Source of the DNA: Halobacterium sp. CBA1132
GTDB taxonomy: Archaea; Halobacteriota; Halobacteria; Halobacteriales; Halobacteriaceae
DNA: 64,000 nucleotides
NCBI RefSeq assembly: GCF_001485535.1
Contig: NZ_BCMZ01000001.1
Span: forward strand, 2,232,001-2,296,000
Direction of reading: 5' to 3'
The number at the start of each line of letters is the position of its first letter. Within the stretch, counting starts at the first letter, position 1. The position numbers and the translations under genes were made by a program. The notes under the pieces were generated by a model. It ran no database searches. It had not been told where the DNA came from and saw only the letters and a list, made by a program, of their open reading frames with translations. Positions 1 through 55,387 of the stretch are shown here, piece by piece.

Positions 1-155
1 ACATGCTGTCGGCGTTTTTCCTCGGGTACGTCACGCTCACCGAACTCGCCGCGGTGCTGACGGCGGGGACGCTGGTGAGCGTGCTGTCGACGCTGACGTT
101 CGCGGTCGTCGAGTCGTGGCGAGCCGAGCGGAAGGGCGGCCCGGACGCCGCCTAG
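1..155 (+). CDS. 3' end of a membrane protein gene (partial)
   Basis: An open frame enters from the left edge and ends with TAG at 153-155. The visible 50 residues begin with a Met at base 3, but this is probably internal. They contain about 35 hydrophobic residues (AFFLGYVTLTELAAVLTAG and on) followed by a short charged tail ending KGGPDAA, as at the cytoplasmic end of an integral membrane protein. The family cannot be named from this fragment. It converges on the polyprenyl synthetase gene and overlaps its stop by a few bases. Confidence 0.6.
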   Translation, partial: MLSAFFLGYVTLTELAAVLTAGTLVSVLSTLTFAVVESWRAERKGGPDAA

Positions 156-994
156 GCTTCCCGGGAGACGACGAACTCCGCGAGATACTCCAAGTAGTCG
201 TAGGCTTCCCCCGCCGGCAGGTCGAGGCTGTCGAGGGCCTCCATCGCGCGCTCGCTCTCGCGTTCGGCGAGCGCGTTCAACTCCGCCGGCGAACGGTCGG
301 TGACGCGAACGATGCTCGGACGGTCCATCTCCTCGTCGATGCCCGCGGGCTTTCCGAGGTCCTCGCTGTCCGCGGTGGCGTCGAGGACATCGTCCCGAAT
401 CTGGAACGCGACGCCGACCCGTTCGGCGTACTCCCCGAGCGCCTCTATCGAGCGGCCGTCCGCGTCCGCGGCAATCGCGCCGAGCTCCGCGGCCGCGCGG
501 AACAGCGCGCCCGTCTTCCGGCGCGCCAACTCCATGTACTCGGCTTCCGTCTCGGGCCGGTCGACGAGTTCGATGGCCTCGCCCTCACCGAGCTCGACGA
601 GCGCATCGGTCACGCACTCCATCGCACGCGGGTCCCGGGAGAACAGCGCGAACGCCTCCCCGAGCAGGCCGTTCGACGCAATCAGCGCGGGGCCGTGCTG
701 GAACTCCGCCCACGCGCTGGCCTTCCCGCGGCGGAGCGCCGACTGGTCGATGATGTCGTCGACGACGAGGGAGGCGTTGTGCACGAGTTCGACGCCGACC
801 GCGAACCCCATCGCGTCCTCGCTGTCCCCGCCGGCGGCCTCGCAGACGAGCACGGTGAGCGTCGGCCGCACGCGCTTGCCGCCCGCGAGCACGACGTGTT
901 CGAGTTCGTCGCTGAGTTCCGACGGCTCCACGGCCGCGACGGTCTCCGCGAGCCGCTGTTCGATGGCGGCGCGGCGCGCCTCCACGTACTCCAT
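152..994 (-). CDS. Polyprenyl (geranylgeranyl-type) diphosphate synthase
   Basis: A 280-residue trans-isoprenyl diphosphate synthase that condenses isopentenyl diphosphate with allylic diphosphates to make precursors of archaeal lipids, quinones and carotenoids. Visible motifs are GKRVRP (IPP binding), the first aspartate-rich motif DDIID followed by RRGKAS, and the second aspartate motif in FQIRDDVLD. The start at 994 (MEYVEARR) is preferred over the in-frame Met at 1057 because the extra 21 residues look like leader sequence and the family normally begins close to this helix. Product chain length cannot be read from the sequence. It is a single gene, upstream of and on the same strand as nothing closely coupled. 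Confidence 0.9.
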   Translation of the reverse strand: MEYVEARRAAIEQRLAETVAAVEPSELSDELEHVVLAGGKRVRPTLTVLVCEAAGGDSEDAMGFAVGVELVHNASLVVDDIIDQSALRRGKASAWAEFQHGPALIASNGLLGEAFALFSRDPRAMECVTDALVELGEGEAIELVDRPETEAEYMELARRKTGALFRAAAELGAIAADADGRSIEALGEYAERVGVAFQIRDDVLDATADSEDLGKPAGIDEEMDRPSIVRVTDRSPAELNALAERESERAMEALDSLDLPAGEAYDYLEYLAEFVVSREA

Positions 995-40935: not shown

Positions 40936-41008
40936 GGGACCGTGGGGTAGCTTGGTATCCTTCAGCGTTTGGGACGCTGTAACCCCGATTCAAATTCGGG
41001 CGGTCCCA
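40936..41008 (+). tRNA. tRNA-Pro (UGG anticodon)
   Basis: The cloverleaf is clear. The acceptor GGGACCG (40936-40942) pairs with CGGTCCC, with A73 at 41008. The anticodon stem CAGCG/CGCTG carries the loop TTTGGGA (anticodon TGG), and the T-arm is CCCCG-ATTCAAA-TTCGGG-like with the usual TTCAAAT. CCA is not encoded and there is no intron. An accessory island begins 90 bp downstream. Confidence 0.95.
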
Positions 41009-41097
41009 CTTCTCTGCGACGTCACGACGACCAGGGCGACGGCCGTCGAACGCGGTAGTCCGGAAGTCTATATGTAATCCCGACCACACTATTTCGT

Positions 41098-41895
41098 ATG
41101 GAGTCGCATCGGAAAGGAGACTTGACCGAGGCCACCGTCATCACGGAGTTGAAACGGCGGGAGATACCCGTGTCAGTCCCGTTTGGTGACAACGAGCGCT
41201 ACGATCTGGTCGCGGAATCAGCGGGCGACCTCTATCGGATTCAGGTGAAGACCGGCTGGCTCTCGGACGGCTGCGTGGAGTTCCACGGGAAATCGAGCCA
41301 CACGAACTCGAGCGGCAACGTCTACAAGACCTACGACGGCGACACGGACTTCTTCGCTGTGTACTGCCACGAGCTCGAACAGCTGTATCTCGTCGACGAG
41401 GACGCGTTCGAGACGGAGATGCGCCTCCGCGTCGAGGACCCCGAAATCGAGCAGCCGAGCATCAACTGGGCGGCCGAGTACAAATTTGACGAACAGTGGC
41501 CGCCCGAGGACGGCACGAACGCCGTCGCGGGCGAGCGCGAGGCCATCGTCCAGACGCTACGCGACCGCGGCGTGGACGTCATCGATGCGATGGACAGCGA
41601 CGCGCCCTACGACGTCATCCTGCGCACGCCCGCGGACGACCTCCTGCGAGCGGCCGTGCGCCGGGGCTCGGTGACGAACGGCCGGATTCGCTTCGACACG
41701 AGCCAGACCGTCCCGGGTCCCGACGATGTCGAGTACGTGGTCGTGGACTGCGCGGAGCGCGGCGAGCAGTATCTCGTCGAGCGCGCGAGCTACGAGCGCA
41801 CGATGAGCCTGCGGGTGGCCGAACCCGAGCAGGCCCAGCCGTCGATAAACTGGGCGGAAGAGTACGAATTCGGGAAACGCTGGCCGCCGGGGTAG
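41098..41895 (+). CDS. PD-(D/E)XK endonuclease-like protein with two tandem repeats
   Basis: A 265-residue protein. Repeat 1 (1-140) has the PD-(D/E)XK layout of group-I-intron-type endonucleases: KGDLTEATVITELKRREIP, NERYDLVAES (Asp), YRIQVKTGWL (Q-x-K). Repeat 2 (143-265) follows the same plan (DRGVDVIDAMDSDAPYDVIL, VVVDCAERGEQYLVERASYE), and both end in near-identical QPSINWA(A/E)EY blocks, but repeat 2 reads AAVRRGS where repeat 1 has QVKTGW, so its active site is lost. First gene after tRNA-Pro. Confidence 0.8.
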   Translation: MESHRKGDLTEATVITELKRREIPVSVPFGDNERYDLVAESAGDLYRIQVKTGWLSDGCVEFHGKSSHTNSSGNVYKTYDGDTDFFAVYCHELEQLYLVDEDAFETEMRLRVEDPEIEQPSINWAAEYKFDEQWPPEDGTNAVAGEREAIVQTLRDRGVDVIDAMDSDAPYDVILRTPADDLLRAAVRRGSVTNGRIRFDTSQTVPGPDDVEYVVVDCAERGEQYLVERASYERTMSLRVAEPEQAQPSINWAEEYEFGKRWPPG

Positions 41896-42105
41896 GTGTT
41901 CCACAAGTGGGTCGAAGGTCGTGGCCTCGGCCCCGAGACTGTCGCTACCCGACTGGACCTCTCGCTCTCGGAAGTCTACCACGCGCTGGCGTACTACCAC
42001 GACCACCCCGAGGAGATGCGGGTAGTCGAGGAAGAGCGCGAGCGCGTTCGTGAGATGGCCGAGACCGACTCAGACATCGCCACCAGCCCGGGGAACATCC
42101 CGTAG
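41896..42105 (+). CDS. Truncated DUF433/HTH-like protein
   Basis: Sixty-nine residues starting at a GTG immediately after the previous stop. The core LGPETVATRLDLSLSEVYHALAYYHDHPEEM matches the helix-turn-helix half of DUF433 antitoxin-like proteins; the N-terminal beta half is missing. A fragment or fusion remnant is likely. It could still be expressed by coupling to the upstream gene. Confidence 0.55.
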   Translation: MFHKWVEGRGLGPETVATRLDLSLSEVYHALAYYHDHPEEMRVVEEERERVREMAETDSDIATSPGNIP

Positions 42106-42110
42106 TAACG

Positions 42111-42520
42111 ATGGAGGTCCGCGTTCTGCTCAACGAAGACACAGAAGCATCACTCACGGACTCCATCTCACGCGCCGGCAACGACATCGAGCGCGAGTTC
42201 GGCGCGGACCTCTCGATCTACCGCGACAAGTCCACTGGCACGAACACCGAGCGCTCCGGCTACCAAGAGATGATGGCCGACGCCGAGGACGGCGAGCTGC
42301 GCGACAGGCCAACGAGGACTACCACCACGGCCCCGCGCCGCTCGGGTTGGAGAAGGACGACGGCCGGCTCGTCGAGGCCGACAACTACCACGACGTCGTC
42401 TTCGTACTCGACATGGTGCAGAAAGACGAACTCTCGAAGCGCAAGGCTGCCGAGCGATTGGACAGTTCGCGGCCGACGATTAACCGAGAACTGGAGCGAG
42501 CGGAGCTGTACGGGCTGTAG
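42111..42520 (+). pseudogene. Broken serine recombinase (resolvase) gene
   Basis: Frame 1 (from 42111) ends its homology with SIYRDKSTGTNTERSGYQEMMADAEDGEL, a resolvase segment. The reading then jumps frame to RQANEDYHHGPAPLGLEKDD, then DMVQKDELSKRKAAERLDSS and ELERAELYGL, the HTH end of the same family. The catalytic-core middle (about 80 residues) and a proper N-terminus with the active Ser are missing. This is a deletion-plus-frameshift remnant marking past mobility of the island. Confidence 0.75.
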
Positions 42521-42717
42521 GCCGTGGAATTCGCAGCACTTCGGTCCTCTACGAGCGCGAGGTTGAGCGCATTCTCGTGACGACTTAGAGTAGCTGAGAT
42601 ACGTTCAGGAAGTACTCGGTGATAGCACAGCAGCGGGTGAGAGAAGGTTCTGCAACTCTAATCAGATAGACATAATATAGATTTTGAGCGCGTATATATT
42701 TACTAACTCAATCAGGT
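42521..42717. other. AT-rich gap at the left edge of the defence-like trio
   Basis: No supported gene. Composition switches from GC-rich to A/T-rich around 42590 (for example GACATAATATAGATTTTGAG), marking the boundary of the foreign DNA carrying the next three genes. It probably holds the terminator region of the leftward-reading operon. Confidence 0.4.
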
Positions 42718-43818
42718 CTAATCAAGCATCCTCAAGTCATAGTCCAAAGCTTCAACGGCCTCTCGGGCGATTTCTTCATCAATCTGGGTTTCCGTATACG
42801 CAATTATGTACATCTCATTAAGTATTTCACCCAATCTTCGGGTCAATCCATCACTGCCATCGAATGCAGTTTCAATTGAAGCCTCAGTATACGGCTCAAA
42901 TTGATCCTCAAGATCAACGGTCCGTCTGTAGTCGATAACGCGAGATGCTATTTGTTTTGCATCATCCTCGCTAATCTTACCCAAGCTGAATCCACGAACC
43001 ATTCGGGATTCGAGTGCAGTCAACCAACCTGGCAAATCCTTTGACGAAGCAGTTGGATCAATCTTCGTTGCTGCTTGCGTAGTTGCACTAATGATGATCT
43101 CCACATTAGGAACGTTATCCTCTTGCTCAATTACGTCGTAAAGTCTACGGAGACCGTCACTGAAGTCGGTCATCTTATTCGAACTCAGTCGGGTTACTGT
43201 AGTCTCGAACTCGTCAATAAGAATTAATAAATTATCGACTCCCGTGTCGTATAATCGCGTTAGCCATCTTCTCAAGAAGTCAGTTTGCACCTCTCTTTGC
43301 GTCCACTTCGGTTTTTCATCTATCCCTGAGATACTGGGGAACCGTCCCTTATTTCCAGTTAGGACAGCCCAACTCTCGCGGTTCATGACTGCGTGGTTGA
43401 GAATTCCTTCCCGTCCTCGACCGGAAATTGAATCGGTCCCAGTCGGTAAGTCTTCTTCCACTTCACCACGCAGATATTCGGTTGCCGAGAAAATAGATTG
43501 ATAAAGATCTCGAACTTCCCCCCCACCAAGGTCCGATACTAGTGCGGCTTCCCAGCGTTCATCAGTATCTAAATCATTCTCAACGGCTTGCCTAGCTAGC
43601 CAAGCAAGCGTCCATGTCCGACCGATGCCAACAGGGCCAGATAGTGGATAGACACAGACCCCTCTTACTCGATTTTTCTGAACGTGCTCCTTGAACCGTT
43701 TATGTTGATCAAGGGCGACAAAGGTTTCACGTCCAGTATCAAGGTCCAAACCACCGCCCAATTGGAAGGGCGCGTTCGGGAGTAAGTCCTTGACCTGTTG
43801 AGGCTCATCTTGGTTCAT
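42718..43818 (-). CDS. AAA-like ATPase with Arg in the Walker A motif
   Basis: A 366-residue P-loop protein. The nucleotide loop reads GPVGIGRTWT (61-70), with Arg67 where Lys is expected. Walker B is NLLILIDEFE (Asp202, Glu203) and a sensor-like strand is EIIISATTQAATK. Followed by a helical lid and a C-terminal helical bundle, the order resembles Cdc6/ORC-type and STAND ATPases. It starts 2 bp after the stop of the Cas4-like gene upstream, so they are co-expressed. Low GC and AT-ending codons indicate transfer. I cannot match it to a named defence ATPase. Confidence 0.7.
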   Translation of the reverse strand: MNQDEPQQVKDLLPNAPFQLGGGLDLDTGRETFVALDQHKRFKEHVQKNRVRGVCVYPLSGPVGIGRTWTLAWLARQAVENDLDTDERWEAALVSDLGGGEVRDLYQSIFSATEYLRGEVEEDLPTGTDSISGRGREGILNHAVMNRESWAVLTGNKGRFPSISGIDEKPKWTQREVQTDFLRRWLTRLYDTGVDNLLILIDEFETTVTRLSSNKMTDFSDGLRRLYDVIEQEDNVPNVEIIISATTQAATKIDPTASSKDLPGWLTALESRMVRGFSLGKISEDDAKQIASRVIDYRRTVDLEDQFEPYTEASIETAFDGSDGLTRRLGEILNEMYIIAYTETQIDEEIAREAVEALDYDLRMLD

Positions 43819-43820
43819 GT

Positions 43821-45581
43821 TTAACTATCACCCGTTTGCGGCTCGGTCAACAGTATTGCATCGTAAATTCGTGCGTTCCTCATGAGTCTTGTATTGGACA
43901 TTGTGGAACCCTCCATTAAATCAATTGCCCGAGATTTTGAAGACCATTCTCTCCAGATAAGTTCATCCACGAGCCAAGAACTAGCGTGTTCGTCTCTATT
44001 ATCTAATTCTTTCAGCACCTTTCGCCGAGCATAATCATACTGGATTCGCCGATCATTCGGCAACGAAATCTGGATTAGTTCTCGTCGAGAGTCTTCATCA
44101 ATTAGATACTGGTACAATCCACCTGCCCGATATAGATGGTCAATCAAGTGTGGGTTACCATCATCAGACTCTGGCAGGTCAATATTGAAATAATCCAGAT
44201 ATTGATTCCTGAACCGCTCTAGGGCGGGAGTGAAATTAGGATATTCTCCTGTAGAGACTTCGTCTCCGTAATCCTCAAAGTATCGCAGAGCGTCACCAGT
44301 TAGACTGAGCTCACATACCACGTAATCTCGAATTGAAGTCGCCAAGCGTCGGATTTGCTCTTCTTGGTTCTCAGCTTGAAGAATCATCTGTCCATTTGGA
44401 GCAATATTAATGCTTTGTCCATCATTTTCAACCCTTATTAGATGGAGTCTTGTCAGGGTCGGGATGGCCATACCTCGGAAAACGCTCTTCTTACTTTTGT
44501 CTGGGAAGACCTCCATTACACTCGCAGCGACATCCGGTCTCGCTGGAGCTCCAGAAGCGACTTTTTCCAGAACCTTCAGAATATGCGAGCCGCTCAGTTT
44601 TAGATTGGTTAGATCATTATAAATATCATTTCTAAGGTCGTAGTATTTCCCTCCCTGATGGCAGGCATTAGCGTAGAGACAAGAAGTACATGCCCCCGCA
44701 TACTTTGGCTCTTCAGGTTCAAGTAATCGGTCCTTGAGTGGTTCAGAGTTATCCCACTCATCCTCAGTTATACTGTCGAACGCTAGGCTAGTGAACCGTT
44801 CCAAATTTGTTCTTATCTGCTCTCGTATGACATCATCAACATACACTCGATCAATCCGTAGTTCAGACAATTCTTCATTTAAGCTAAGATAAATACCATA
44901 GTTAACTGGGATATCACTGTCTCTTTCGACGTGAACAGCATACCCCGCGAGTAGATGACGGTCAATCGGACTATCTGGAACGCTTATTTTCGATTCAAAA
45001 ACGCCCCCGGGAAGTTCGTCCGGCAACCATGCGCCATCTGGTTCTGCATCATGAAAATAGTCAGTTGAAACAGAGTGTTGGACATCAATTTTTAGAGCTT
45101 CTAAATCGATATCGAGCTCATCAACTTTCTTGGATATATCCGTGGTTCTATCGAGATAAAATTCTCTAAGATTTTCCGGGATATCCGGTTCTTCCAACGC
45201 GGACGGATCCTGTGTGGATAGCCATTGATTAAACGCGCGATTTGCTTTATCGACCCATTCTTCGAAGAGGTTCCCTGCTTCACGTCGTGTTACATTTACC
45301 TCACGACCGAGGATTTCGCTAACCTCATCGTCTGAGTTTTCAAATTCTGGCGGAGTGCTAAACTGGTGGTACACCCTAGCATTAGAGGGGCAAGGACCTG
45401 TTCTAAGAATTTTAGCTTTGATACGGTCTCGGTCATCCAGATCTACGCCGGGATCAGATTTCCCCAGGTCATTAAATAGCTGATCAATCCTGTGGAAGAA
45501 TTCAGAGTTATACCCTCGTTGGGTAATTGGTGCCCTAAATTCACTTTCCTCATGAGCTTCTAGAAAGCCCAATGCTGGCAT
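43821..45581 (-). CDS. Cas4/RecB-like nuclease with C-terminal winged helix
   Basis: A 586-residue protein. The N-terminal half has Cas4 hallmarks: a lone Cys64 (TGPCPSNARVYHQF), a PD-(D/E)XK core with VFESKIS (Glu196, Lys198), an LLAGYAVHVE helix in the place of Cas4's QLxxYA, and a C-terminal C-x2-C-x5-C (Cys298, Cys301, Cys307) that together with Cys64 can hold an iron-sulfur cluster. Residues 325-400 look like a winged helix (SHILKVLEKVASGAPARPDV). The last 180 residues are helical and unidentified. It is far longer than Cas4 (about 200) and no cas genes are nearby. Operon with the ATPase. Confidence 0.7.
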   Translation of the reverse strand: MPALGFLEAHEESEFRAPITQRGYNSEFFHRIDQLFNDLGKSDPGVDLDDRDRIKAKILRTGPCPSNARVYHQFSTPPEFENSDDEVSEILGREVNVTRREAGNLFEEWVDKANRAFNQWLSTQDPSALEEPDIPENLREFYLDRTTDISKKVDELDIDLEALKIDVQHSVSTDYFHDAEPDGAWLPDELPGGVFESKISVPDSPIDRHLLAGYAVHVERDSDIPVNYGIYLSLNEELSELRIDRVYVDDVIREQIRTNLERFTSLAFDSITEDEWDNSEPLKDRLLEPEEPKYAGACTSCLYANACHQGGKYYDLRNDIYNDLTNLKLSGSHILKVLEKVASGAPARPDVAASVMEVFPDKSKKSVFRGMAIPTLTRLHLIRVENDGQSINIAPNGQMILQAENQEEQIRRLATSIRDYVVCELSLTGDALRYFEDYGDEVSTGEYPNFTPALERFRNQYLDYFNIDLPESDDGNPHLIDHLYRAGGLYQYLIDEDSRRELIQISLPNDRRIQYDYARRKVLKELDNRDEHASSWLVDELIWREWSSKSRAIDLMEGSTMSNTRLMRNARIYDAILLTEPQTGDS

Positions 45582-45671
45582 TATTACAGCGAACTTATTC
45601 TATGCTGATTAATCTATTGGACTACTCAACCACAAAATGGCAGAAGGGAACGGAGGTCATTCTTCCAAGCC

Positions 45672-45684
45672 AAATTTATATCCC
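45672..45684 (+). promoter_or_regulatory. TATA box of the methyltransferase gene
   Basis: AAATTTATATCCCC contains TTTATAT about 27-34 bases before the ATG at 45708, the proper distance for a transcript starting a few bases ahead of the gene. The box lies in the 126-bp divergent gap between this gene and the nuclease-ATPase operon. Confidence 0.6.
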
Positions 45685-45707
45685 CGCCTGTTGAGTTACA
45701 TTACAAG

Positions 45708-47375
45708 ATGGACGAGGAGACGTCGCAGTCGGAGCAAACTCACCTCAGCGGTTCACTTAGCGATGGTGACTCTACCTCAGATTTTGATTTTGGCTTTGAG
45801 TCCTCTCCCGCGATCTCAGATGATCGGAAGTTTCCAACTTATCCGCTCAAGGTAGTACCTGGCCAAGAACATCTAGAGTATCCAGAGATGGATTTTCGAG
45901 CGTTATCCTCTGTTAAAGACACACAGTATCTAACACATGTTCTTCACAAACATCCTGCAATATTCATTCCACAAATACCGGAATATATTATCGAGCAATT
46001 CAGCAGCGTGAGGAACGTTAAGGGCGAGCAAACTACAGTAATGGATCCGTTTTCCGGAAGTGGAACAACAGGGGTGGAAGCGAAGATAAAGGGTCGAAAC
46101 TACCTTGGTGTGGAAATTAACCCACTCTCAAAGTTAGTTAGTGAAGTGTCAACAAGTCCGGTACCACATACGGTACTAGATGAAGTGGTGACGGAGCTTA
46201 CCGCCCATTTAGAAAGGGTTGACACAAGTGAAAAATTCGAAGAATATGATGTCGAGTTTCTTGATCAGACCAATAAGGGCCATTGGTTCGAGGAAAGCGC
46301 TCAAAGAGAGCTAACTGCTGTTAGAAAGGTCATTCAAGAATTCACAGATCAGTTCAACCCATATGAGAACCTGACTCGATTTGAGGAAGAAGCAATCAAA
46401 GAGGGTTCAACCTCGCTGCTGAAGAAAATCAAGAGGTGGCTCGTTCTGATGCTAGCAAATGCCGTCTATGAAGTATCAAATGCAGATCCTGGCGTATCGA
46501 AGGCATATAAGTCGCCAGATATAAAGGAAAAAATATCTGCAGGGGAGCACCCACAAAGCGCGGTTTCGGTTTATCAGGAAGAGCTAGCCGACAGTAAAGA
46601 CCGGTTAGAGGATTTATGGGATGCCGTATACCCAGAGAAAGATATTGACGACCTGGAATCTAATCCACGACATCAAGCAAAGATAGATATCCGTCTAGCA
46701 GACGCGCGTGAATTCCAATATCCGGAGTACTCAGAATCAGTCGATTTAGCAATTACCTCACCCCCATACATCAACGCGATGAATTACTATCGGGGCACGA
46801 AGCTGCGGTTATTCTGGATTTACGATCTAATCGAAGATGAATTTGAAGCCGATGAGTTACGCCGGTCTATAGTTGGCACAAACGCTTCGAGGATTAGCGA
46901 GGCGGAGATAGACCTTCCGGGCTCTCTTCGTGATCGTTGGAAGGGTTCTACAGAGTTATTTAATGCCACAAGTCTCCCAGCTCTTGATGAAGATATAGAA
47001 GAAATCCACGAGGGACATCTAACTGAAGCCAATCGTCGAGCATACACAACTTGGCGGTTCTTCGCTCACGACATCCTACGAGCGTTAACCCGGAGCTACG
47101 AGCATCTCAAGCGGGGCGCTCATTTCTTTTTCATTATCGGGGAAAATACCATCAGTGGACGGCATATCAGTAGTCACCGCTACGTGGCAGATATCGCACA
47201 GAATCTCGGCCAGTTTGAGGGCCATGGTGGAAATCTTGAATCAGATGAAGGATTCAACCTGATAGGATTTGCTTGGGATGAGATTACTAATCGTGACCTC
47301 TTCCAAGGTAGAGACCATGGAAGCGGAGTGATTGACTGTGAATGGGTAGTGATACTCCAGAAGCCAACTAACTAG
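45708..47375 (+). CDS. DNA methyltransferase (TSPPY; N4-cytosine or N6-adenine type)
   Basis: A 555-residue methyltransferase. SAM motif I is MDPFSGSGTTGVEA (113-120 core) and the catalytic motif IV is AITSPPYINAMNYYRG (SPPY at 351-354). Motif I precedes motif IV with about 230 residues between them, an alpha-like order with a large insert that probably reads the target. The tail has FFFIIGENTISG (motif VI-VIII region). It diverges from the nuclease-ATPase operon, so modification and cutting could be paired. AT-rich and foreign in codon use. Confidence 0.82.
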   Translation: MDEETSQSEQTHLSGSLSDGDSTSDFDFGFESSPAISDDRKFPTYPLKVVPGQEHLEYPEMDFRALSSVKDTQYLTHVLHKHPAIFIPQIPEYIIEQFSSVRNVKGEQTTVMDPFSGSGTTGVEAKIKGRNYLGVEINPLSKLVSEVSTSPVPHTVLDEVVTELTAHLERVDTSEKFEEYDVEFLDQTNKGHWFEESAQRELTAVRKVIQEFTDQFNPYENLTRFEEEAIKEGSTSLLKKIKRWLVLMLANAVYEVSNADPGVSKAYKSPDIKEKISAGEHPQSAVSVYQEELADSKDRLEDLWDAVYPEKDIDDLESNPRHQAKIDIRLADAREFQYPEYSESVDLAITSPPYINAMNYYRGTKLRLFWIYDLIEDEFEADELRRSIVGTNASRISEAEIDLPGSLRDRWKGSTELFNATSLPALDEDIEEIHEGHLTEANRRAYTTWRFFAHDILRALTRSYEHLKRGAHFFFIIGENTISGRHISSHRYVADIAQNLGQFEGHGGNLESDEGFNLIGFAWDEITNRDLFQGRDHGSGVIDCEWVVILQKPTN

Positions 47376-47386
47376 CTATAACGCAA

Positions 47387-47586
47387 TTAGTTATAGAACA
47401 TGTCCAGCGGGGGTCGCGGCTGATGTCGAGCATCAATCTCGTCTTCGATATATAGCCGACCGCAAGTCGTCAGCTCGTAAATCTCGCTGTGAATCGGCTC
47501 GATAGAGAAGATAAGGCCGAACACGTACGTGATATTCTCTGCACCGTGACAGACGAGCTGGAGTTCAACGAAGGTTCCGAGGACTA
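47387..47586 (-). pseudogene. C-terminal fragment of a phiH1-type winged-helix repressor
   Basis: The minus-strand frame ending at TAA 47387 reads VLGTFVELQLVCHGA, then IHSEIYELTTCGRLYIEDEI and DARHQPRP, the wing and tail of haloarchaeal phage-repressor-like proteins (E-I-Y-E-L-T-x-x-G-R-x-Y-I). It lacks the N-terminal HTH and has no good start. Confidence 0.55.
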
Positions 47587-47889
47587 AGCCAGCACATAGC
47601 CGGGTCGCTGCGCGCTCGGCTCAGGCACGATCTGGTCAGCGCGCGCCTCCCTATCCAGGTAGAACCGCCCCCAAATAGTGAGCGAGAACAGGCCGTAGTC
47701 GTCGGTCTACGGGTCGACGTAGCCAGCCTGCGCAAGCACGCGAAGCCGCTCGCGAATCTTCTGCGTGCTCACGGGTCGCCGACGAGACCGTGCGATAGTC
47801 CGCGGCGTCGCAGCTGCGTCCGTGTCGAGGTATTCGAGAATCCGGTCGTCGAGCGTCGTCATCCAGTCGCCTGTCCGACGCACATTCAT
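47584..47889 (-). pseudogene. phiH1-type repressor gene with an in-frame amber stop
   Basis: It begins NVRRTGDWMTTLDDRILEYLD, the hallmark start of haloarchaeal virus repressor-like winged helices, continues TPRTIARSRR and VLAQAGYVDP, then hits TAG at 47707. Beyond it the same frame resumes family sequence (TDDYGLFSLTIWGRFYLDRE) to TAG at 47584. A single nonsense change has therefore split a gene of about 100 codons. Its ATG overlaps the preceding remnant (ATGA). Confidence 0.65.
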
Positions 47890-48156
47890 GCTCCGTTGGC
47901 CTCCGTCTCGGAGTCGCCGAGCTGGTACTTCTCGGCGTCCGCCTCCTTGGTGAACTCCTCTGCCTCCGCGTCGTACTCGCCTTCGAGGTACGCCTTCCCC
48001 TCCTCAGTGCCCGTACACGCCGTTCGGAAGCCGATACAGCAGCCCGTGGTCGGCCATTTTGTTGAGTCGCGACGAGATGTGTTGCTTCGAGACGTGAATC
48101 AGGCCGGTATTTTTGATGGTTTTCGGTGAACTTGGCCCTTTTTGCTCGATAGTCAA
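47886..48156 (-). pseudogene. Frameshifted winged-helix repressor remnant
   Basis: From a TTG at 48156 the frame reads LTIEQKGPSSPKTIKNTG, then HVSKQHISSRLNKMADHGLL and YRLPNGVY, a winged helix of the same family, then stops. The family's end (GTEEGKAYLEGEYDAEAEEF) continues in another frame to TGA 47886. One small indel near 48005 would join the two. It forms a chain with the next two remnants. Confidence 0.6.
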
Positions 48157-48247
48157 GAGAATCAATTACGGTGTGACTTGCCCGCCGATACGTCTACCGA
48201 GAGACGAACAGAAGCGGGCGTTACGGCAGATAGTCGAATGGATTTCC

Positions 48248-50702: not shown

Positions 50703-50824
50703 CAGACGACTCCGGAGTTGTCGGGGGTTCTCAGCAGAGCGGGATACCTGTTCGGGCGTGGATTCACTTCCACCCCGGTTTGCGAACCTTCTTAGGCGAG
50801 CGCGCGTTACCTATCGTGGACAGA

Positions 50825-53800
50825 ATGGCCCAGGCCGCAAACCAGGAACTCGTCGACAGGTTCGAGGAGTTCTACCGCCGGTACTACAGCGACGACGTCG
50901 CGGAGCTCGCGCGCAAGTACCCCCGCGAGTCGAAGTCCCTCCACCTCGACTGGCGGGACCTCTACCAGATGGACCCCGACCTGGCCGACGACTACATCAA
51001 CCACCCCGACGACCTCCGGGAAGCCGCCGAGGAAGCGCTGCGCCTCTACGACCTCCCGGTCGACGTCAGCCTCGGGCAGGCCCACGTGCGCGTCCAGAAC
51101 CTCGACGAGCACACCGAAATCCGGGCGATTCGCGCCGAACACCTCAACACGCTCGTCAGCGTGCAGGGGATGGTGCGGAAGGCGACGGACGTCCGCCCGA
51201 AAATCGAGCGCGCGGTGTTCGTCTGCCAGCGCTGCGGCGCCGAAACCGAGGTGCCCCAGGGAGACGCCGGCTTCCAAGAGCCCTACCAGTGCGAGTCCTG
51301 CGAGCGACAGGGGCCGTTCAAACTCGACCCCGAGCGCTCGGAGTTCGTCGACTCCCAGAAGCTCCGGATTCAGGAGTCCCCGGAGGGGCTGGCGGGCGGC
51401 GAAACCCCCCAGAGCATCGACGTGCACGTCACCGACGACATCACCGGCGAAGTGACGCCCGGCGACCACGTCACCGTCGCGGGCGTGCTCCGCCTCGACC
51501 AGAGCGAGGGGAGCAACGAGTCCCCCGTCTTCGACCTCTACATGGAGGGGACGTCGGTCGTCATCGAGGACGAGGAGTTCGACGAGATGAACATCACCGA
51601 GGAGGACAAACAGCAGATCGTCGAAATCTCGAACCGCGAGAACATCTACGAGCAGATGGTCGACTCGATGGCCCCCTCCATCTACGGCCACCGGGAGGCC
51701 AAGCTCGCGATGATTCTCCAGCTGTTCTCCGGCGTCACCAAACACCTCCCCGACGAGTCCCGCATCCGCGGCGACCTCCACATGCTCCTCATCGGGGACC
51801 CCGGGACGGGGAAGTGCCTCGACGGGGACACGAACGTGACGCTCGCTGACGGTACCGAGCGCCCGATTCGGGACATCGTCGAGGAGAACCTCGAAAACCC
51901 GAAGCCGGTCGACGACGGCGTGTACGACGACGCCGACCTGCCGGTTCTCTCGATGGACGCCGACGGAACGCTCACCGAACGGCGAGCGACCCGAGTCTGG
52001 AAGCGAGAAGCACCAGACCAGATGTATCGGATTCGCACGTCGAGTGGGCGCGAACTCGAAGTGACGCCCTCGCACCCGCTGTTTGTCCGTCGGGGCCGCG
52101 GACCGAAAGCGGTACGAGCAGAAAATCTCGAGAAAGGTGAAGCGGTTGCAGCCGATTCGAAGAGATTCCAAACCGAACAAATCGTAACGGACGGCGGGCG
52201 TGTAGTCGAGCGACCTAATGACAAAATAGGAGCGAGTTTACCCACGGTCGACTGGGACCGAATCGAGTCCATCGAGGCCGTCGAGCCGGCCGAGGAGTGG
52301 GTCTACGACATCGAAGTCGAAGGGACGCACGCGTACGTCTCGAACGGCGTCGTCTCGCACAACTCCGCGCTCATCTCCTACGTCCAGAACATCGCGCCGC
52401 GCTCCGTCTACACCTCCGGTAAGGGCTCTAGCTCAGCCGGGCTGACGGCGGCGGCGGTCCGCGACGACTTCGGGGACGGCCAGCAGTGGACGCTGGAAGC
52501 CGGCGCGCTCGTGCTCGCCGACCAGGGCGTCGCGGCGGTGGACGAACTCGACAAGATGCGATGTGTGACGGGGGACACGCTGGTCCACTTTGACGACCGA
52601 GTGAGCAGAATTCGGGACTTCGCCGTCGACGCTGCCGAGTCCGGTGATCTGGAGGAGTTGCCGAACGGCCGGACGATTCGGGGCGTCGAGGCCGACGTCT
52701 GGACGATGACGGAATCCGGACGAATCGAAAAACGCCCCGTGACGGCCGTCCACGAGTACGACGCTCCGAGCGAGCTCGTCGAGGTGACACTGGAGTCCGG
52801 CGAGCGACTGACCGCGACGGCCGACCACCCGTTCTTCACCTTCGAGAACGGCGAGCGCGTCGAGCAGCCGGCCGAGGAGCTCTCCGACGACGACTGGGTG
52901 TACGTCCCGCGGTCGCTGTCCGGGGCGACGGCCGACGGCGGGTCGGTGACCGAAGCGTCAGTACCGCCCTCTGTCTCGTCCGGAGCGGACGGCATCGAGC
53001 CGGAATTCGCCGCGGTCCTGGGCTATCTCGCCGGCGACGGGAACCTCTACTACGACCGCAGCGAGGGGGTCTACGGAATCAGATTCACGAACGCCGAAGA
53101 ACAGTTGCTCGCGGACTTCGAGGATGCTGCCCGGAGCACGTTCGACACCGAGCCGACGCGCCCGCCGAGCGAGCAGCGCGCCGACGGCGTCGACACCGTC
53201 CGCGTCCACGGCCGAGAACACGCCGACCGGGTACTCGACGCGGGGATGAACCGCGAGACGTACGACGGAAAGACGCTACCGGACGACGTGACGGCGTCGT
53301 CGCGGACAGCGAAGGCGGCGTTCGTTCGCGCACTCGCCGACAGCGAGGGGGCGGTCGGCGACCGGCAGCTCCGCATCCACTCCGCGAGCTACGAACTACT
53401 GCTCGGCGTGAAACACCTCCTGTTGGAGTTCGGCGTCTCCAGCCAGCTCCACCACCGGGAACACGAGGACAAACGCGACATCTACCAGCTCGCGATCACG
53501 GACGCGGACTCGCTGGCCGCGTTCGACCAGTGCGTCGGATTCACGCTCGACCGGAAGCAGGACGCACTCGAGGACGCTGTCGAACGCGTGTCCGGCGAGC
53601 GGACGATTCGGGACGTGGTCCCGGGCATTGGCGGACGGCTCGAGGCGGCCCGAAAGTCGCTACGTCTGCACCAGTCCGAGTGTGGCATCGATGACGTGAC
53701 GTACTGCAACTTCGAGAACGGCGACGCGAACGTCTCGATCCGGCTGGCCCGAGACGTCCTCGACGCCTTCGAGTCACGGCGACGCGCGGCCGATCGAGAC

Positions 53801-55387
53801 GGCCAGCAGGTGACAGACGCCGACTGGCGGACACTCAAGCGCCTCCGGGACCGCTATCACGTCTCTCAGGACGAACTCGCGACCGGAACTGCGTTCAGCC
53901 AGCAGCAAATCTCCCGGCTGTGGGGCGAGGACGAGCGCTTGCTCACGACGGTCCGGTCGCGGCTCCGGGAGGTCGTCGAGGGTGCCGCGGAGACGGAGCT
54001 TACCGGTCTCCGCGAGATCGTTTACGGGGACGTGAAGTGGCGGCGAGTAGCTAGCGTCGAGTCCGTTTCGCCGGACGAACAGGATGACCGGATTCCGGTG
54101 TTGCGCGGTGAACTCGCCGACAGCCTCGGTGTCCCGGAGGACGAGGCTGTCGAGGTCGCAGACGAACTGCTCGCTCGAGAACCGAGCGTCGATTCGTGGA
54201 GCGCGCTCCGGACGGCGCTGTCGCGGCACGGAATCGCTCACGAAGCACTCGCGGCGGACCTCGGCGTGAACCAGAGCACGGTGACGCGGTGGCTGAACGA
54301 GGACGTCGAGACGGACCGGTTCGTCGAGGTCGCAGACGCCGCACTCGACCGCATCCACGAGGTCCGCAGCGAGGTGGACCGGCTGCGTTCCGAAATCGAG
54401 CGGCGCGAACAGCCGAAAGTGTACGATCTCACCGTCGCGGGGACGCACAACTTCGTCGCGAACGGGATGGTCGTCCACAACTCCGAGGACCGTTCGGCGA
54501 TGCACGAGGCGCTCGAACAGCAGAAGATCTCGATTTCGAAGGCGGGTATCAACGCCACGCTCAAAGCCCGCTGTTCGCTTTTGGGCGCGGCGAACCCGAA
54601 GTACGGCCGCTTCGACCAGTACGAGCCCATCGGCGAGCAGATCGACCTCGAACCCGCGCTCATCTCCCGGTTCGACCTCATCTTCACGGTGACCGACGAG
54701 CCCGACCCGGAGGAGGACGCGCAGCTCGCCCAGCACATCCTCCAGACGAACTACGCGGGCGAACTCAACACCCAGCAGGAGCAGCTCGCGAGCGCGAACC
54801 ACACCGAGGACGAGGTTAGCGCGGAGACCGACAACGTCGCGCCCGCCATCGACGCGTCGCTGCTGCGGAAGTACATCGCGTACTCGCGGCGGAACTGCTA
54901 TCCGACGATGACCGACGAGGCGCGGGACGCCATCGAGGAGTTCTACGTGGACTTGCGCGCGGAGGGGCAGGGCGAGGACTCGCCCGTCCCGGTGACCGCG
55001 CGCCAACTGGAAGCCCTGGTGCGACTCGGCGAGGCGTCCGCGCGCGTCCGGCTCTCGGACACCGTCGAGAAGGAGGACGCCGAGCGCGTCATCGAGATCG
55101 TGCGGTCGTGTCTCCAGGACATCGGCGTCGACCCGGAGACCGGCGAGTACGACGCCGACGTCGTCGAGACCGGGCGCTCGAAGACCCAGCGCGACCGCGT
55201 GAAGAACGTCAAAGCAATCATCAAGGAAATCGAGGACGAGTTCGACGAGGGCGCGCCCGTCGAGGAGGTGCTCGACCGCGCCGAGGAGGTCGGGATGGAC
55301 GCCTCGAAAGCCGAACACGAGATTGAGAAGCTCAAGGAGAAAGGCGAGCTCTACCAGCCGAACAAGGACCACCTGCGGGCGATATAG
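50825..55387 (+). CDS. mcm: Replicative helicase MCM with two inteins
   Basis: A 1520-codon gene encoding a 697-residue MCM plus two inteins (183 and 640 residues). The N-terminal domain carries a zinc site (FVCQRCGAETEV, CESCERQG). The AAA+ module has Walker A GDPGTGK-S split by intein 1, Walker B region VAAVDELDKMR split by intein 2 before S-E-D-R-S, then sensor/arginine finger ANPKYGRFD and LISRFDLIF, and a C-terminal winged helix. The hexamer unwinds DNA at forks. The ATG at 50825 (MAQAANQELVDRFEEFYRR) follows a TATA-like TTCTTAGG; the frame is open 45 bases upstream. Confidence 0.96.
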   Translation: MAQAANQELVDRFEEFYRRYYSDDVAELARKYPRESKSLHLDWRDLYQMDPDLADDYINHPDDLREAAEEALRLYDLPVDVSLGQAHVRVQNLDEHTEIRAIRAEHLNTLVSVQGMVRKATDVRPKIERAVFVCQRCGAETEVPQGDAGFQEPYQCESCERQGPFKLDPERSEFVDSQKLRIQESPEGLAGGETPQSIDVHVTDDITGEVTPGDHVTVAGVLRLDQSEGSNESPVFDLYMEGTSVVIEDEEFDEMNITEEDKQQIVEISNRENIYEQMVDSMAPSIYGHREAKLAMILQLFSGVTKHLPDESRIRGDLHMLLIGDPGTGKCLDGDTNVTLADGTERPIRDIVEENLENPKPVDDGVYDDADLPVLSMDADGTLTERRATRVWKREAPDQMYRIRTSSGRELEVTPSHPLFVRRGRGPKAVRAENLEKGEAVAADSKRFQTEQIVTDGGRVVERPNDKIGASLPTVDWDRIESIEAVEPAEEWVYDIEVEGTHAYVSNGVVSHNSALISYVQNIAPRSVYTSGKGSSSAGLTAAAVRDDFGDGQQWTLEAGALVLADQGVAAVDELDKMRCVTGDTLVHFDDRVSRIRDFAVDAAESGDLEELPNGRTIRGVEADVWTMTESGRIEKRPVTAVHEYDAPSELVEVTLESGERLTATADHPFFTFENGERVEQPAEELSDDDWVYVPRSLSGATADGGSVTEASVPPSVSSGADGIEPEFAAVLGYLAGDGNLYYDRSEGVYGIRFTNAEEQLLADFEDAARSTFDTEPTRPPSEQRADGVDTVRVHGREHADRVLDAGMNRETYDGKTLPDDVTASSRTAKAAFVRALADSEGAVGDRQLRIHSASYELLLGVKHLLLEFGVSSQLHHREHEDKRDIYQLAITDADSLAAFDQCVGFTLDRKQDALEDAVERVSGERTIRDVVPGIGGRLEAARKSLRLHQSECGIDDVTYCNFENGDANVSIRLARDVLDAFESRRRAADRDGQQVTDADWRTLKRLRDRYHVSQDELATGTAFSQQQISRLWGEDERLLTTVRSRLREVVEGAAETELTGLREIVYGDVKWRRVASVESVSPDEQDDRIPVLRGELADSLGVPEDEAVEVADELLAREPSVDSWSALRTALSRHGIAHEALAADLGVNQSTVTRWLNEDVETDRFVEVADAALDRIHEVRSEVDRLRSEIERREQPKVYDLTVAGTHNFVANGMVVHNSEDRSAMHEALEQQKISISKAGINATLKARCSLLGAANPKYGRFDQYEPIGEQIDLEPALISRFDLIFTVTDEPDPEEDAQLAQHILQTNYAGELNTQQEQLASANHTEDEVSAETDNVAPAIDASLLRKYIAYSRRNCYPTMTDEARDAIEEFYVDLRAEGQGEDSPVPVTARQLEALVRLGEASARVRLSDTVEKEDAERVIEIVRSCLQDIGVDPETGEYDADVVETGRSKTQRDRVKNVKAIIKEIEDEFDEGAPVEEVLDRAEEVGMDASKAEHEIEKLKEKGELYQPNKDHLRAI
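51815..52363 (+). other. Intein 1 in MCM (mini-intein in the Walker A loop)
   Basis: 183 residues (331-513 of the precursor). It begins with Cys (CLDGDTNVTLADGTER; block A), has the block B region ELEVTPSHPLF, and ends with block F/G WVYDIEVEGTHAYVSNGVVS then His-Asn before extein Ser514. It sits exactly within GDPGTGK|S. No LAGLIDADG endonuclease is present and it is too short for one, so this is a splicing-only mini-intein. The last third is AT-richer. Confidence 0.93.
52562..54481 (+). other. Intein 2 in MCM (LAGLIDADG homing endonuclease plus HTH)
   Basis: 640 residues (580-1219). It starts Cys (CVTGDTLVHFDDR), block B TATADHPFFTFEN, with two LAGLIDADG-type motifs (AAVLGYLAGDGNLYY and AFVRALADSEGAV), and ends VYDLTVAGTHNFVANGMVVH then Asn before extein Ser in SEDRSAM. 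Between the endonuclease and the splicing C-block lie roughly 330 residues with two helix-turn-helix-like segments (RDRYHVSQDELATGTAFSQQ and HEALAADLGVNQSTVTRWLN). The insertion is after DELDKMR, next to Walker B. Confidence 0.93.

Follow-up and report, generated by a model that had tools for sequence, protein, structure and literature searches.

The window, a stretch of 64,000 nucleotides from the haloarchaeon Halobacterium sp. CBA1132, carries three adjoining genes for a P-loop ATPase, a nuclease-like protein and a DNA methyltransferase, which an earlier note had proposed as a defence or modification system. All three ORFs are present and intact where they had been placed (Table 1). The ATPase and nuclease ORFs are separated by 2 bp, and the methyltransferase gene diverges from them across 126 bp containing TTTATA at ~45674-45679, ~30 bp before its ATG. 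This motif is consistent with an archaeal TATA box and may act as a promoter; a search of the same intergenic region for sigma-70-type promoters and terminators gave no match. The trio is indeed AT-rich, with a GC content of 0.45-0.47 (GC3 of 0.39-0.44) versus 0.66-0.71 (GC3 of 0.92-0.93) in three flanking genes.

Table 1. Features of the cassette, its surroundings and related loci (window positions unless a locus or residues are named).
Feature	Position	Strand	Remarks
P-loop ATPase, predicted distant BrxC/BrxD relative	42718..43818	-	366 aa, intact ORF
Walker A, GPVGIGRT (Lys replaced by Arg)	~43615-43638	-	window ATPase
Walker B, LLILIDEFE	~43204-43230	-	window ATPase
Predicted two-part protein, Csa1/Cas4-like nuclease + second subunit	43821..45581	-	586 aa, intact ORF
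Predicted Csa1/Cas4-like PD-(D/E)XK nuclease, four-Cys Fe-S signature	residues ~1-310		N-terminal
Predicted second subunit	residues ~311-586		C-terminal
Predicted nuclease active site D182, E196-x-K198 (GGVFESK)	44988..45038	-	invariant in three haloarchaeal copies
C298-x2-C301-x5-C307, predicted Fe-S ligands	44661..44690	-	invariant in three haloarchaeal copies
Cys64, predicted Fe-S ligand	45390-45392	-	invariant in three haloarchaeal copies
Divergent intergenic region	45582..45707	no strand	126 bp, sequence
DNA methyltransferase	45708..47375	+	555 aa, intact ORF
Motif I, DPFSGSGTT	46044-46070	+	window methyltransferase
Motif IV, TSPPY	46755-46769	+	window methyltransferase
AT-rich inserted element with the trio	42059..48245	no strand	conserved flanks nearly adjoining in sister genomes L062, L064
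Broken recombinase-like fragment	42050-42566		outer part of insertion
Small HTH-like ORF	47707-47889		outer part of insertion; HTH_24 0.0049
tRNA-Pro	40936-41009		outside insertion
Methyltransferase + 640-690 aa partner	L036:8659-12985; L037:8723-12649; L038:6758-10581

The cassette is missing from two sister genomes of the same genus (L062 and L064) in which the flanks, up to ~42058 and from ~48246, are conserved and nearly adjoining, which delimits an insertion of ~6.2 kb (~42059-48245). Flank identity amounts to 90-92% beyond the insertion ends and to 82-86% in 41107-42058. According to the ORF list, the insertion holds no large ORF besides the trio. The fragment next to the trio is a frameshifted remnant that reads as serine recombinase-like and has no Pfam match. 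The description of the locus as an island with decayed mobile genes beside tRNA-Pro thus holds for this remnant and for the presence of the tRNA gene, but the latter lies outside the insertion, as does a PDDEXK_5 endonuclease-domain gene, since both are common to the sister genomes. That gene (41098-41895; 6e-54 over two stretches) shows an apparent tandem duplication. A direct repeat of the tRNA-Pro end was looked for as an attachment site and none was found. The site, empty in L062 and L064, is occupied in a third sister genome (L063) by a different island of ~9 kb starting directly after the same tRNA-Pro, which points to an integration hotspot. The L063 island (L063:1769-10271) encodes an HSP90-like ATPase (HATPase_c_3), an HhH-GPD glycosylase and more large genes without assignment, and looks like another defence island. 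Elsewhere in the window, at 50780-55387, a 1535-aa MCM-like ORF appears, on reading its sequence, to be interrupted by inteins.

The 586-aa protein had been described as a Cas4-like nuclease. This stands for its N-terminal half; the remainder is a fused second subunit, since the two halves are encoded by separate genes in a distant copy of the set (L065, see below). Csa1 is matched by all three haloarchaeal members, with a best value of 3.8e-6; the window copy alone reaches 5e-5, under the Pfam cut-off. The motifs follow the Csa1 order (CP..R cysteine, D, [DE]xK, GYA and a C-terminal cysteine cluster), as expected of the Cas4/Csa1 family, and the window ExK aligns to the DxK of L065 and of CRISPR Csa1 proteins. 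Cys64, the ESK site (196-198) and the C298-x2-C301-x5-C307 cluster, all singled out in the earlier note, are present, and the catalytic and cysteine residues are invariant among the three copies, whose nucleases are ~50% identical. We therefore assign the protein, on its motifs, to the Csa1 branch of Cas4-like nucleases, an assignment that becomes firm only through the L065 copy. No convincing family match was obtained for residues ~311-586, no target-recognition domain was identified in the cassette, and a PDB sequence search with the nuclease returned nothing meaningful. AlphaFold models built on three-sequence alignments had a mean pLDDT of 36.

The ATPase matches AAA_22 (1.1e-5) and BrxC_BrxD (2.2e-4) in Pfam, under the cut-offs, as do all three members, and the BrxD models of PADLOC (7.9e-6) and NCBIfam (1.6e-5). 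The three haloarchaeal copies share 66% identity. A P-loop and a Walker B motif with its DE pair are present as claimed, but the Walker A lysine is an arginine in 3/3 copies, Walker B being kept, whereas the L065 ATPase has a normal GKT. This substitution makes ATP hydrolysis uncertain in the haloarchaeal proteins: nucleotide may be bound but left intact, or its hydrolysis may follow an unusual route. Searches of the PDB sequences returned nothing meaningful for this protein, and viral contigs and plasmids contained no relative of it. By sequence it is a distant BrxC/D relative; the match is weak when the window protein is taken alone and firm only through L065.

The methyltransferase carries both motifs expected of the TSPPY type (DPFSGSGTT and TSPPY), and matches N6_N4_Mtase in Pfam (8.7e-14) and the type II methyltransferase model of PADLOC (8.6e-34). 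An FxGxG motif I together with an SPPY motif IV is the signature of N4-cytosine methyltransferases, and N4-C DNA methyltransferases figure among its PDB matches, so that its product is probably N4-methylcytosine. Its orthologues are 52% identical.

Among 391 Halobacteria genomes, the nuclease was found in three, one of them the metagenome-assembled genome of Halobacteriales archaeon QS_1_69_70 (L008), and the ATPase profile retrieved exactly the same three. A close methyltransferase homologue lies nearby in each. Nuclease and ATPase were never found apart, nor without the methyltransferase; if the first two were unlinked, their coincidence would have a chance of ~1e-7, in a calculation that ignores phylogeny. 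The neighbourhood survey could have revealed that the genes seldom occur together, and for nuclease and ATPase it revealed the opposite. All three copies keep the catalytic residues unchanged, and every cassette is AT-rich relative to its host. The layout varies: divergent in the window, a single operon in L007, where the cassette sits between two genes reading as tyrosine recombinases, and in L006 a methyltransferase separated from the pair by ~5 kb that hold other genes. These genes (L006:11772-16084) encode a 713-aa HATPase_c_3 protein, 255-aa and 332-aa proteins without assignment and a PadR-like wHTH protein, and may represent a second defence module that has moved into the cassette.

A phylum-wide search with the nuclease profile recovered a further copy, L065, in another archaeal class. 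It is a four-gene operon of methyltransferase, Csa1 nuclease, separate second subunit and BrxC/D ATPase, all on one strand with overlapping ends and with low sequence identity to the window set. Profile comparison with the window proteins gave 4e-29 for the methyltransferase, 1e-7 for the second subunit (3e-7 by hmmsearch) and 5e-4 for the ATPase; the nuclease half matches its counterpart directly, though modestly (3e-4). Against Pfam, the L065 proteins exceed the cut-offs for Csa1 (2e-21) and BrxC_BrxD (2.7e-12). CP..R, [DE]xK, GYA and C-x2-C-x5-C align between the two sets, and most also with CRISPR Csa1. The divergence of this copy and its occurrence in another class indicate that the whole gene set is old. 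A search of 139 genomes of that class with the L065 second subunit returned itself only. Two other candidates were discarded: the weak match at L061/L066 is, on its neighbours, an ordinary CRISPR locus with Csa1, and a 298-aa gene preceding a BrxC/D ATPase in L068 was not supported as a second subunit by profile comparison, although the ATPases are weakly alike.

Four loci of the set are thus known in all, three of them from one order; scans of genome contigs with short peptide patterns recovered just one known copy. Methyltransferase and nuclease behave as a linked, co-transferred unit in 3/391 genomes and in L065, as restriction-modification partners do, and nuclease, ATPase and methyltransferase together form a conserved unit that is transferred as such. 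Could an orphan methyltransferase and an independent nuclease-ATPase operon merely have met in a defence hotspot? The opposite strands in the window, the 5 kb separating the genes in L006 and the four genomes in which the methyltransferase clade lacks the pair would fit. We nonetheless regard this as very improbable, given that the pair never occurs without the methyltransferase and that the L065 operon, of low sequence identity, carries every part on the same strand with overlapping gene ends.

The four genomes in question (L036-L039) encode a full-length methyltransferase of the same clade without nuclease and ATPase. In L036, L037 and L038 it adjoins instead a 640-690 aa protein unrelated to the window partners, and in L039 a mere 41-residue stub of that protein. 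The trio proposed earlier as one system is accordingly upheld insofar as a methyltransferase accompanies every nuclease-ATPase pair, but the methyltransferase is also found with a different partner. That partner has no convincing match in Pfam, PADLOC or NCBIfam; it carries a conserved D...GEHRTSVVSGGTTAR stretch that might, at a guess, be a nuclease core, and with its methyltransferase it makes a second candidate system. More distant methyltransferase relatives adjoin MvaI/BcnI restriction enzymes, McrB-like and McrC-like genes, or HerA-like/PLD genes. Viral contigs yielded short partial methyltransferase matches only. A further hit, L042, was short and marginal. Partner exchange, and a modification gene that outlives its partner, are typical of restriction-modification. 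The swapping of partners within the clade and the retention of the modification gene in L039 after partner loss therefore favour a restriction-modification-like reading; orphan methyltransferases near degraded enzymes are on record (PMC6471742).

Two other functions were weighed against restriction of unmarked DNA. A modification-dependent (type IV-like) or abortive defence, in which nuclease and ATPase would sense foreign methylation or loss of the mark, or kill the host, is suggested by the distant methyltransferase relative beside McrB/McrC-like genes and by LlaJI, a system of mixed type II and type IV character (PMC1459862). We hold it to be unlikely: type IV systems need no methyltransferase, and its retention in 4/4 loci suits self-marking better. 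A nuclease for DNA repair, recombination or mobile-element (anti-defence) functions, paired with a protective methyltransferase, would agree with the location on mobile DNA, including the tyrosine-recombinase-like genes flanking the L007 copy, and with such roles proposed for non-CRISPR Cas4-family proteins (PMC5704561). The rare and patchy distribution (3/391), the exchange of partners on the methyltransferase side and the results of our searches, in which viral contigs and plasmids contained no relative of either nuclease, window or L065, and phages none of the L065 one, make this distinctly unlikely.

The cassette is probably a mobile restriction-modification-like defence, in which a self-marking methyltransferase protects the host while the Csa1 nuclease and the BrxC/D-like ATPase degrade unmarked DNA. 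In the proposed mechanism, the methyltransferase would mark a sequence in host DNA, probably as N4-methylcytosine, and the Csa1/Cas4-type Fe-S nuclease and the ATPase would attack DNA devoid of this mark, unmethylated DNA being the presumed target. The ATPase would license or load the nuclease, and the fused second subunit may recognise DNA, thereby conferring specificity, or couple the nuclease to the ATPase. The cutting and methylating activities and any use of ATP are predictions from sequence, and a recognition site is presumed. The explanation is weakened by the small number of loci (four, three of them from one order), by the window nuclease and ATPase matches lying under Pfam cut-offs, by the Walker A arginine, with which ATP hydrolysis may be lost, and by the L006 methyltransferase ~5 kb away. 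Within this framework, the cassette most likely belongs to a new subtype of restriction-modification-like defence. The stronger proposal, that a new class of restriction-modification is defined by an Fe-S nuclease of the Csa1 type, with a BrxC/D-like ATPase to license it and a dedicated second subunit, we advance tentatively and with slightly more doubt than belief.

The Csa1 branch has so far been described as specific to type I-A CRISPR (PMC5704561); if its member here cuts in a methylation-based defence, the branch would have a job outside CRISPR. BrxC/D-type ATPases would likewise be seen working without PglZ, which would help to isolate the role of the ATPase. Should the new-class reading be true, parts of CRISPR adaptation, BREX and restriction-modification would be joined in one ancient archaeal machine, suggesting exchange of Csa1 between CRISPR and restriction systems. 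The cassette, of three genes, is small and mobile and could be tested in laboratory strains of haloarchaea. Surveys based on fixed models probably overlook it, since PADLOC returns stray Cas4, BrxD and type II methyltransferase matches alone.

No PADLOC, Pfam or NCBIfam model describes the combination, and a text search of archaeal restriction-modification and defence surveys in the open-access literature gave no match to it. The earlier statement that the trio fits no named system thus holds at the level of system models, but the ATPase, as a predicted distant BrxC/D relative, ties one part of it to BREX. As in BREX, a putative BrxC/D-type ATPase would be coupled with a DNA methyltransferase on mobile DNA devoted to defence; unlike BREX, it has no match to PglZ, PglX, BrxA or BrxB and has a Cas4-type nuclease. 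PglZ itself is matched above its family cut-off elsewhere in the same genome, on another replicon (C2) rather than in the cassette, in a BREX-like locus (L092, G000:C2:136000-155999) with further large ORFs of 1401, 972 and 1062 aa. No ATPase of that locus is matched by the BrxC_BrxD Pfam profile, which in this genome matches the window ATPase alone. The latter could then be a loose BREX part serving the C2 system, its neighbours being unrelated; we find this hardly credible, as its orthologues always adjoin the nuclease and a divergent BrxC may sit unseen on C2, the window ATPase itself being under the BrxC/D cut-off. BrxC/D-like ATPases also occur on haloarchaeal plasmids in a row with a tRNA-guanine transglycosylase and a ~300-aa protein (L068:4600-7684 and L069:4457-7543; 1.2e-29 for the transglycosylase and 1.2e-15 for BrxC_BrxD in L068), which may amount to a system for 7-deazaguanine modification of DNA.

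DISARM is likewise multi-gene and methyltransferase-based, but the trio has no match to its helicase (DrmA), DUF1998 (DrmB) or PLD components; the reported lack of helicase, PglZ, DUF1998 and PLD families was borne out in Pfam, PADLOC and NCBIfam. With CRISPR Csa1 (Cas4 of type I-A, COG4343, pfam06023) the cassette protein has its nuclease motifs in common, but it is tied to a methyltransferase and an ATPase and fused to a second subunit. No cas genes lie in the cassette, as had been observed, and a search of the whole genome for Cas1, with type I-A adaptation in mind, found none. The cassette is therefore not BREX, DISARM or CRISPR. Comparable in context are the Cas4-type nucleases adjoining DNA modification genes, namely UvrD-Cas4 with type III restriction-modification or Dcm, and solo-Cas4 beside restriction-modification genes in DPANN (PMC5704561). 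Those proteins are pfam12705 helicase fusions or solo-Cas4, whereas in the cassette a Csa1-type nuclease accompanies a BrxC/D-like ATPase, and a helicase is lacking.

In architecture, the cassette resembles the LlaJI/McrBC-like type II systems, in which one or more methyltransferases likewise accompany an NTPase subunit and, as a subunit of its own, a PD-(D/E)XK nuclease (PMC1459862); one Cryobacterium plasmid carries a locus of this kind that includes a distant relative of the window methyltransferase. The parts differ: the LlaJI-type NTPase is McrB-like, of a GTPase family, and the nuclease McrC-like, whereas those of the cassette are BrxC/D-like and Csa1-like with Fe-S cysteines, and neither matched the McrB or McrC models at E up to 1. 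LlaJI also has two 5mC methyltransferases against a single one, probably N4-C, in the cassette. It requires an NTPase-like subunit whose NTPase activity went undetected (PMC1459862), and thereby offers a precedent for the haloarchaeal ATPases with their altered Walker A. Taken against these systems, the cassette looks like a known kind, restriction-modification, built from an unusual set of parts and rare in salt-loving archaea.
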